Origin: an uncultured Saprospiraceae bacterium
GTDB taxonomy: Bacteria > Bacteroidota > Bacteroidia > Chitinophagales > Saprospiraceae
DNA: 41,602 nucleotides
Direction of reading: 5' to 3'
Assembly: GCA_937924495.1 (NCBI GenBank)
Contig: CALDSS010000187.1
Location: 1 to 41,602 of the forward strand
The notes beneath the pieces are model-generated. The model saw nothing but the letters and a program-made list of their open reading frames with translations, was not told the origin of the DNA and searched no databases. Numbering within the stretch: the stretch's first letter is position 1; each line of letters opens with the position of its first letter. The position numbers and the translations under genes were made by a program. Positions 39,217 to 41,602 of this stretch are shown here, piece after piece.

Positions 39217-39360
39217 AGTATATACTTTTTGAACGACTGCAATGTAGGATATTTTTATAAAAGATTGATTCTCAATGAGTTTAGAAAAAATTTCTAATTC
39301 CTAAAAAATGTAATTTTTAAAATACCAAAATATCGGTATAGACAGACTATGACCGAATGC

Positions 39361-39368
39361 TACTTTTG
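39361..39368 (+). promoter_or_regulatory. Candidate -7 element of the structured RNA
   Basis: TACTTTTG fits TAnnTTTG. A transcript would start near 39375 and run to the terminator at 39697. There is no TTG at -33, so the promoter is only half supported. Confidence 0.45.
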
Positions 39369-39374
39369 TTCTCG

Positions 39375-39697
39375 TAAAATATACACCATCCCGCCCACCG
39401 ATTTAAAAGTTTATTAAAAAAACTGTTGAAGGAAGTCCCTTCGGCCTTTGCCGATTATAATCCTTTGAAATCCTTTTTTAAGCCATAGTCTCCTCCCTTT
39501 CAATATTCAGGTATTAAAAACCCAAAGAGAGTGAAGATTATACAAGGCAGAATCGCTACTAACAAATAAGGGACATAATCGCCTTGAACAAGCGATACTT
39601 CACAAGAGAAAGTTTTAAGTAATTAAAACTTTATTTAAAGAGCAGTTTTTGGGATGGCCTCTCTCCGCGAATTATGGAGGGGGGCTCCTTTTTTTTT
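39375..39697 (+). ncRNA. Candidate structured non-coding RNA (or leader) of about 320 nt, family unknown
   Basis: Bounded by a -7 element and a strong terminator, with no ORF. Visible helices: 5' CCATCCC (39386-39392) with GGGATGG (39651-39657); TCGGC/GCCGA hairpin (39441-39454); outer stem GTGAAG/CTTCAC (39531-39536 with 39598-39603) enclosing CAAGGC/GCCTTG (39543-39548 with 39581-39586) and ATCGCT/AGCGAT (39552-39557 with 39591-39596), which interlock as an H-type pseudoknot; and AAAGTTTT/AAAACTTT (39609-39632). The 5' CCATCCC competes with the left arm of the terminator for the same bases, as in an antiterminator. It does not show the conserved cores of tmRNA, RNase P, SRP RNA or riboswitches that I know. 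Boundaries are predicted, not observed. Confidence 0.5.
39652..39697 (+). terminator. Strong intrinsic terminator with 9-T tail
   Basis: Left arm 39652-39666 and right arm 39676-39688 give ten continuous pairs (two G-U), then three more past a 2-nt bulge. Nine Ts (39689-39697) follow directly. It faces plus, although no plus-strand gene ends upstream. Confidence 0.88.
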
Positions 39698-40051: not shown

Positions 40052-41602
40052 ATGAAGTATAGACTGTTTAAACGTAAAAAGTCGAATCAATTCTTCTTCC
40101 AAATTCAGACAGACGGAGATGTGACGGTTTTGGAAAGCCAAGGTTATGACCAAAAGGACGCCAGAAACAATGGCCTTCGTTCAGTTGTAACCAATGGTGG
40201 TGATGCAGGGAAATACGAGAAGAAAACTGAAGGCGGAGAACATTATTTCATTTTAAAAGCAGGTAATGGTCAAGAAATTGCCCGTTCCGTAAAATACGGA
40301 AATGAAGGGGATGCGGACAGCTCAATTGCATTGTGCGTAAAAGAAATTCCAGGTATAGCTCCAGGAAAAGATGCTGGAGATGGAAATGCAAAAACTACCG
40401 CTACCACCACCACTACTACAACTACCACTACAACTGAAGAAGCGGGTAAGACTGTGACAGAAGGAACAAATTTGGTAGCTGCAAATCGCAACGCAAATGT
40501 TTCTATCGATGCTCCTCCTCCTCCAAAGGAAGACAAACCTAAAAAGAAACGTAAAAAGCGTAAACCTGCTGGCGAGAAAAAGCCTAAAAAAGAAAAAGTT
40601 TACCTTTCAAATGGGGAATATTACTTCAATGATATTACCTACCAAATATTTAGAAGTAGTAACGACAAGCACTACTTCACATTCAAAAACAAGGCAGAAA
40701 AAACAATCTTCCTAAACGCAGATGTCAGAGGTTTTGAGACTCAAGCTCAAGCTGAGGCAATGGTAGAGGAAGTGTTTAAATATGCTCCATTCGAGGGCAA
40801 TTACGAAGGAAAAGCTACTCGAAATGGCAAGTACTACTTTTACCTTAAAGGTGATGACGGAAAAAACCTTGCAAAAAGTTTCTTCTACGGTACTACTGAA
40901 GGGATGCAAGAAGCAATTGGCGAATTACTTGGTAACGAAGAAGCAATAGCGGCAGCCGCTGCTGCAAGAGGAGGCACCGCTGCTCCAGCACCTGCTGCCA
41001 AAGCTAACGTAGATGAATATCTTGAGTGTTCTGCTTATTCTGGAGATAGTGGATGGCACAAATTTGAAAAAGGTGGCGAGTTCTATTTTTCATATAATAA
41101 TGAAAATGGAAAATCACTGCTTCGCTCAGAAGGATATACCACAGAAAAAGCAAGAGATAATGGTATCGAGTCTGTTAAGAAAAATGCCCCATTGAGTGAA
41201 AGATGGAGTATTGGTGAGGAGGATGGAAAATGGTTCCATATTCTTAAGGCAGGTAATCACCAAGAAATTGGTCGTTCTTGTCCTCTTAATGCAAAGCCAA
41301 GTGCAATGAATTGGAGCTCCTACTCTGCAAAGAAAGTAGTTGCGAAAGCTGCTGCACCTGCACCTGCACCTGCTGCCAAAGCTAACGTAGATGAATACTT
41401 AGAATGTGCTGCTTATAGTGGAGGAACTGGTTTCCATAAGTTTGAAAAAAATGGAGAATACTACTTTGGATATAATGATGACAAAGGAAACACCATTTTG
41501 CGCTCAGAAGGTTATACCACTGAGAAAGCAAGAGACAATGGTATCGAATCTGTTAAGAAAAATGCAACCGAAGAGAAAAGATGGTCAACCATCGAAGAAA
41601 AC
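40052..41602 (+). CDS. Large multi-module YegP/DUF1508-like repeat protein (C-terminus outside window)
   Basis: From ATG 40052 the frame is open for 517 codons to the right edge. There is no signal peptide or membrane segment in the visible part, so it starts as a cytoplasmic protein. It is built of short DUF1508/YegP-like beta-beta-alpha units: ESQGYDQKDARNNGLRSVV near residue 28; FYFSYNNENGKSLLRSEGY plus NGIESVKKNAP near 345-380; and a near copy 126 residues later. Each is paired with a half-unit of the form FHILKAGNHQEIGRS. Units are separated by low-complexity linkers: a Thr run (T118-T128), PPPP then a Lys/Arg-rich patch (about 159-182), and Ala/Pro linkers (APAPAA). DUF1508 occurs in small proteins such as YegP, of unknown function. 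A giant repeat version with basic and Thr linkers is unusual. Confidence 0.8.
   Translation, partial: MKYRLFKRKKSNQFFFQIQTDGDVTVLESQGYDQKDARNNGLRSVVTNGGDAGKYEKKTEGGEHYFILKAGNGQEIARSVKYGNEGDADSSIALCVKEIPGIAPGKDAGDGNAKTTATTTTTTTTTTTEEAGKTVTEGTNLVAANRNANVSIDAPPPPKEDKPKKKRKKRKPAGEKKPKKEKVYLSNGEYYFNDITYQIFRSSNDKHYFTFKNKAEKTIFLNADVRGFETQAQAEAMVEEVFKYAPFEGNYEGKATRNGKYYFYLKGDDGKNLAKSFFYGTTEGMQEAIGELLGNEEAIAAAAAARGGTAAPAPAAKANVDEYLECSAYSGDSGWHKFEKGGEFYFSYNNENGKSLLRSEGYTTEKARDNGIESVKKNAPLSERWSIGEEDGKWFHILKAGNHQEIGRSCPLNAKPSAMNWSSYSAKKVVAKAAAPAPAPAAKANVDEYLECAAYSGGTGFHKFEKNGEYYFGYNDDKGNTILRSEGYTTEKARDNGIESVKKNATEEKRWSTIEEN
40994..41602 (+). repeat. 378-bp direct repeat inside the DUF1508-like gene
   Basis: GCTGCCAAAGCTAACGTAGA occurs at 40994 and again at 41372, exactly 378 bp (126 codons) later. 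Similarity continues from there to the window edge (for example SEGYTTEKARDNGIESVKKN in both copies). Third positions have drifted in places, so the duplication is not brand new. The second copy runs off the edge, so the total number is unknown. Confidence 0.85.

Follow-up and report, generated by a model that had tools for sequence, protein, structure and literature searches.

A candidate regulatory RNA of Saprospiraceae with a 5' end complementary to a signature at the 3' ends of type IX secretion genes

What is encoded by a stretch of about 320 nt that contains no ORF of at least 60 codons and ends in a strong terminator where no plus-strand gene ends? The segment occupies positions 39375-39697 of the plus strand of a 41,602-nt stretch of DNA from an uncultured Saprospiraceae bacterium (the whole stretch analyzed, referred to as the window). 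An earlier note on this DNA had called it an undescribed structured RNA with a pseudoknot and antiterminator-like pairing. Its TAnnTTTG element is the Bacteroidota-type -7 element TACTTTTG (39361-39368, assigned from its sequence), and a transcript would start near 39375. The intrinsic terminator (39656-39697) forms the final part of a conserved 3' element and consists of a stem of 12 pairs, 7 of them G-C, at 39656-39686 and a run of nine T at 39689-39697. With its own promoter and terminator and without an ORF, the segment has the makeup of a base-pairing small RNA, as judged by sequence only. The earlier note could match it to no known family, and an Rfam search of the segment at both thresholds likewise gave nothing, with no match at the gathering score. 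In the literature, which was covered in part, this RNA, its 3' signature, and its promoter palindrome are nowhere described, and the wider system around the RNA has apparently not been reported before. That system comprises features absent from the earlier note, namely a palindromic regulon promoter, a 3' signature common to type IX secretion genes, and a 5' element complementary to this signature.

Conservation in relatives, without which the earlier note would have given up its reading, was found within the genus. L002 is the sole full-length homologue, a copy with 84% identity in one congener, and L003 and L006 are two diverged homologues; longer stretches of these loci were also compared (L195 for L002, and L196 and L197 for L003 and L006), with one of the four congeners compared separately from the joint alignment. 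Common to the window RNA and both diverged members are the -7 element, CATCCC-N5..6-CCGATT, TTATAATCC, and AAAGAGCAGTTTTTGGGATGGCC; these features recur in L002 with a spacer of 4 nt, and the L002 contig begins at GGTAT, 21 nt 5' of TACTTTTG. In the window, the 5' element CCATCCC-GCCCA-CCGATT lies at 39386-39403 and TTATAATCC, which recurs in regulon leaders and stand-alone RNAs, at 39455-39463; both are retained in L195, L196, and L197. Taken with its promoter and terminator, this computational evidence makes it very probable that the segment is a genuine gene for a stand-alone RNA in Saprospiraceae.

The promoter contains the palindrome ATACC-N8-GGTAT at 39322-39339, 21 nt 5' of the -7 element, a spacing kept in L197 and L002, and this palindrome is a probable regulator site. 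The 18-bp element also marks a family-wide promoter class. The pattern ATACC-N8-GGTAT-N20..22-TAnnTTTG occurred in 64 of 120 family genomes, compared with 3 hits for the reversed pattern, and the exact palindrome-plus-promoter copy in the genome under study is found only in the window. Among 131 such promoters gathered, 26 lead to RNAs that end in the signature, and 27 promoter-to-signature units measure 95 to 600 nt. Leaders behind the promoter are often 200-600 nt long. Where the first downstream ORF was clear, 60 of 70 had signal-peptide-like N-termini by a crude rule; domain matches in these genes were few, HYR-type and cohesin domains among them.

At its other end, the RNA carries the signature in the form GAGCAG-TTTTT-GGGATGGCC (39640-39659), with GAGCAG in place of the AATCGG half, 3' of a predicted AT-rich hairpin AAAGTTTT...AAAACTTT (39609-39632) that is identical in L002. 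Elsewhere, the signature (AAUCGG)UUUUUGGGAUGGCC and its terminator follow genes for type IX-secreted proteins and PorP/SprF. The last 60 nt of the RNA have matches in many family genomes, and (AATCGG)TTTTTGGGATRGCCTC followed by a terminator was found in 43 of 61 family genomes, with about 105 matches (at most 8 per genome) versus 6 for the reversed pattern. In an order-wide sample, signature matches were confined to the family except for one inexact hit (G050). The 49 ORFs located 5' of signature copies included 23 with Por_Secre_tail, 14 with PorP_SprF, and 3 with CHU_C domains; Por_Secre_tail frames in these genomes number at least 150, so only a small subset of them is marked by the signature. 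Across 97 distinct copies, the linker is nearly invariant and the terminator stem positions vary with pairing retained. The lower stem of the terminator (39656-39686 in the window) contains U-G wobbles (CCUCUC versus GGGGGG) in most copies, and the upper stem varies freely. In the same genome as the window, a frame that matches Por_Secre_tail below threshold (in L190) is followed by the form AATCGG-TTTTT-GGGATAG. A second, weaker signature (AATCGGTTTTTGGAACAGCC; G000:C189:16724-16744) lies about 800 nt past that copy, directly after another hairpin.

The 5' element of the window RNA is complementary to the regulon signature AATCGG-TTTTT-GGGATGG, and so are words in the leaders of the promoter class. 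The most enriched leader words include CCGATT, ACCGATT, and ATCCCA, all three complementary to the signature, together with TATAATCC (9 of 125 leaders versus 0.7 expected). For 125 non-redundant leaders, duplexes with the signature had a mean energy of -13.1, compared with -11.5 for shuffled leaders. The 1% tail contained 12 leaders (1.2 expected) and the 5% tail 30 (6.2 expected), and not one motif among 200 shuffled ones did as well as the signature. The effect lies mainly in the first 150 nt and in the antisense orientation, where 20 leaders had at least 12 matches versus 7.8 expected; in the sense orientation there was no clear enrichment (6 versus 3.0 expected). The enrichment is significant yet limited to a minority of leaders. 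The duplex of the window 5' element with the signature (-21.8 kcal/mol) ranked second of 125 leaders, with the congener L006 first, and against a longer consensus it reached -26.2; the one good mRNA partner found in the same genome, the GGGATAG form in L190, pairs more weakly (-16.6). Across the family, complementarity above chance to several mRNAs of the same function is found through the shared signature and the leaders. The window RNA retains CCGATT though its own 3' end has GAGCAG rather than AATCGG, and the matching half is present in the 3' UTRs of secretion genes, an arrangement that suggests a partner in trans. As a separate observation, TCCCATGA occurs in 14 of 125 leaders (L204-L316; 0.3 expected) and often opens a short frame of about 10-40 codons 5' of the main gene, possibly encoding leader peptides.

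The structural claims of the earlier note fared unevenly. The predicted fold of the region is modestly better than those of shuffled sequences (z -2.1, with 3 of 100 shuffles as good), that of its minus strand is no better, and we give conservation more weight than this z-score. The three perfect 6-bp helices that the note had listed are present (arms at 39531/39598, 39543/39581, and 39552/39591), and it had read them as a closed H-type pseudoknot (39531-39603). Dinucleotide shuffling produced a closed triple of this kind in 51 of 2000 sequences, 10 of 516 window tiles contain one, and the plain 6-bp H-type crossing is commonplace (1276 of 2000 dinucleotide shuffles). In the alignment with L002, which is ambiguous around the first helix, each of the three helices has lost one pair with no compensatory change in these two alignable sequences, and the closed triple was absent from the two diverged congeners. 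The pseudoknot as a defining feature is not supported, its quality being near chance and the triple not being kept in relatives. CCATCCC (39386-39392) and its complement GGGATGG (39651-39657) are both present, as the note had said; its antiterminator reading, in which their pairing excludes the terminator, was rejected because the two helices share only two bases and coexist, stacked side by side, in the minimum-energy structure. No mutually exclusive alternative hairpin, as in an attenuator, was found. In the same predicted structure, the CCATCCC/GGGATGG helix is lengthened by AAAAACTG (39418-39425) pairing in cis with CAGTTTTT (39643-39650); 8 of these 8 pairs are identical in L002, and L197 has a 10-bp equivalent. 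A leader paired in cis with its own GGGAUG appears in the predicted folds of the window RNA, L006 of the same genus, and L025, L251, and L301 of other genera, which places a comparable long-range 5'-3' helix in three or more genera besides that of the window RNA. This modeled helix is the better-supported structural part, with the full architecture known from only four congeners, not enough to test it for covariation. What stands of the original description is a probable plus-strand RNA, undescribed so far, that has a promoter and a terminator of its own and a predicted long-range 5'-3' closing helix.

The explanation that we consider best, and believe somewhat more readily than not, is a base-pairing regulatory RNA of a Saprospiraceae surface-protein regulon. 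The promoter class, the conserved 3' element, the association with secretion genes, and the enriched complementarity are supported by computation. Because its 5' end is complementary to the signature, the RNA probably acts by base-pairing on the messages of secreted surface proteins that carry it. A regulator bound at ATACC-N8-GGTAT would drive the RNA gene, and the transcript would terminate in the signature that also ends the mRNAs of large type IX-secreted proteins and PorP/SprF. The 5' element CCATCCC-N5-CCGATT could then pair in trans with AAUCGG-UUUUU-GGGAUGG, directly 5' of the hairpin that terminates secretion mRNAs. In turn, the RNA's own 3' signature could pair with the complementary elements in regulon mRNA leaders. 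Self-closure of CCATCCC...AAAAACTG with CAGTTTTTGGGATGG would keep both sites covered until it gives way to a stronger partner. That the RNA is transcribed and pairs in the cell, and the direction and sign of its effect, we infer; it may target 3' ends or leaders, or serve as a decoy. Decoy or sponge RNAs carry the same element as the mRNAs that they regulate, and the window RNA is like them in that an element is common to RNA and regulated mRNAs, a likeness drawn here from nucleotide sequence. More tentatively, a pairing code may span the whole regulon: the mRNAs of type IX surface proteins would have the signature at their 3' ends and its complement at their starts, and the balance struck by stand-alone RNAs with both parts would set 5'-3' closure within a message against cross-pairing between messages.

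Candidate stand-alone RNAs with this 3' end are spread over many genera. A near-identical 3' domain, GGCGATTGGATTGTATGTGATTCACAAGAACCGTTTTCAAGTGTATACTTAAATCGGTTTTTGGGATGG, was found on 43 named contigs, including those of Lewinella cohaerens, Flavilitoribacter nigricans, and Phaeodactylibacter, with P. xiamenensis and P. luteus among the carriers. The majority of these RNAs adjoin a PorP/SprF gene on its 3' side, many lie 5' of a large secreted-protein gene, and the few located directly after a secreted-protein gene may be 3' UTRs instead. Within this material (L061-L133; e.g. L095, L123, and L110), an 81-nt RNA 3' domain beside PorP/SprF genes is 93-100% identical in about 20 genera, usually with one full copy per genome, and its GGATTGTA is predicted to be able to pair with the leader element TATAATCC. 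A 5' complement was sought in the 43 PorP-adjacent RNAs and was absent in most, so pairing is not universal. This absence favors a different account, in which the UUUUUGGGAUGG linker and the terminator bind an RNA-binding protein that the stand-alone RNAs titrate, the 5' complement merely masking the site in this genus. The position of the nearly invariant linker between two helices, seen in the 97 distinct copies, is consistent with such a protein decoy. However, it leaves the enrichment of antisense elements in regulon leaders unexplained, and we regard it as unlikely.

Less probable still is a relic without present function, in which an adhesin gene lost its coding part by deletion and left behind its promoter, leader, and 3' end. 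The RNA does resemble the parts of a regulon mRNA without its coding sequence, TTATAATCC included, but it is conserved in four congeners at different loci, and the 81-nt 3' domain remains 93-100% identical over about 20 genera.

The earlier note had offered the choice between a standalone RNA with a terminal closing helix and a regulated leader. The next plus-strand ORF after the RNA begins at 40052, and the gene there (40052-41602 in the window) encodes five DUF1508 (YegP-like) repeats with low-complexity Thr/Lys/Pro linkers; a DUF1508 gene is also located 3' of the RNA in L002. This shared neighbor, and a terminator in the position expected of a leader, would suit a role as attenuator or leader for the DUF1508 gene. 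Against this, the downstream gene faces the opposite direction in L003 and L006, so that the constant downstream gene of a riboswitch or attenuator leader is lacking in relatives; 355 nt separate the terminator from the gene, and the predicted fold offers no exclusive alternative hairpin. We consider a leader quite improbable, and the standalone RNA fits better. Least probable of all is that the complementary elements are a single protein-binding DNA site that serves in either orientation: complementary sequences are inverted copies too, but the orientation here is fixed, antisense in leaders and sense at 3' ends, and the 3' copy is part of a terminator stem that varies yet stays paired.

The base-pairing reading has counterparts in outline among known Bacteroidota small RNAs. 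Rfp18 of Flavobacterium psychrophilum is predicted to pair with metalloprotease mRNAs and the mRNA of a putative secreted adhesin, and two protease mRNAs were reduced upon its deletion, according to the part of the report covered (PMC9723704). Like the window RNA, it is a Bacteroidota small RNA with predicted pairing to mRNAs of secreted or surface proteins; compared by description, it differs in belonging to the genus Flavobacterium and in that the part of the source covered reports neither a 3' signature shared by its targets nor complementary leaders (PMC9723704). The FopS/GibS family of Bacteroides thetaiotaomicron, also tied to surface-protein mRNAs, has a shared seed and acts near the start codon of these mRNAs (PMC11697453). 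It differs in that its seed lies in the 5' single-stranded part, its targets serve polysaccharide uptake, and it has an Rfam entry (PMC11697453), whereas the window RNA has no Rfam match. Both would work similarly to the window RNA in outline, and we claim no family relation.

How type IX secretion is controlled after transcription is little known. Even should the pairing model fail, the regulon can usefully be marked by its promoter site and 3' signature. If the model is true, the promoter site, the shared 3' signature of the mRNAs, and the RNA would be testable in cultures of Lewinella or Phaeodactylibacter, and the model suggests that the members of this regulon recognize one another through their complementary ends.
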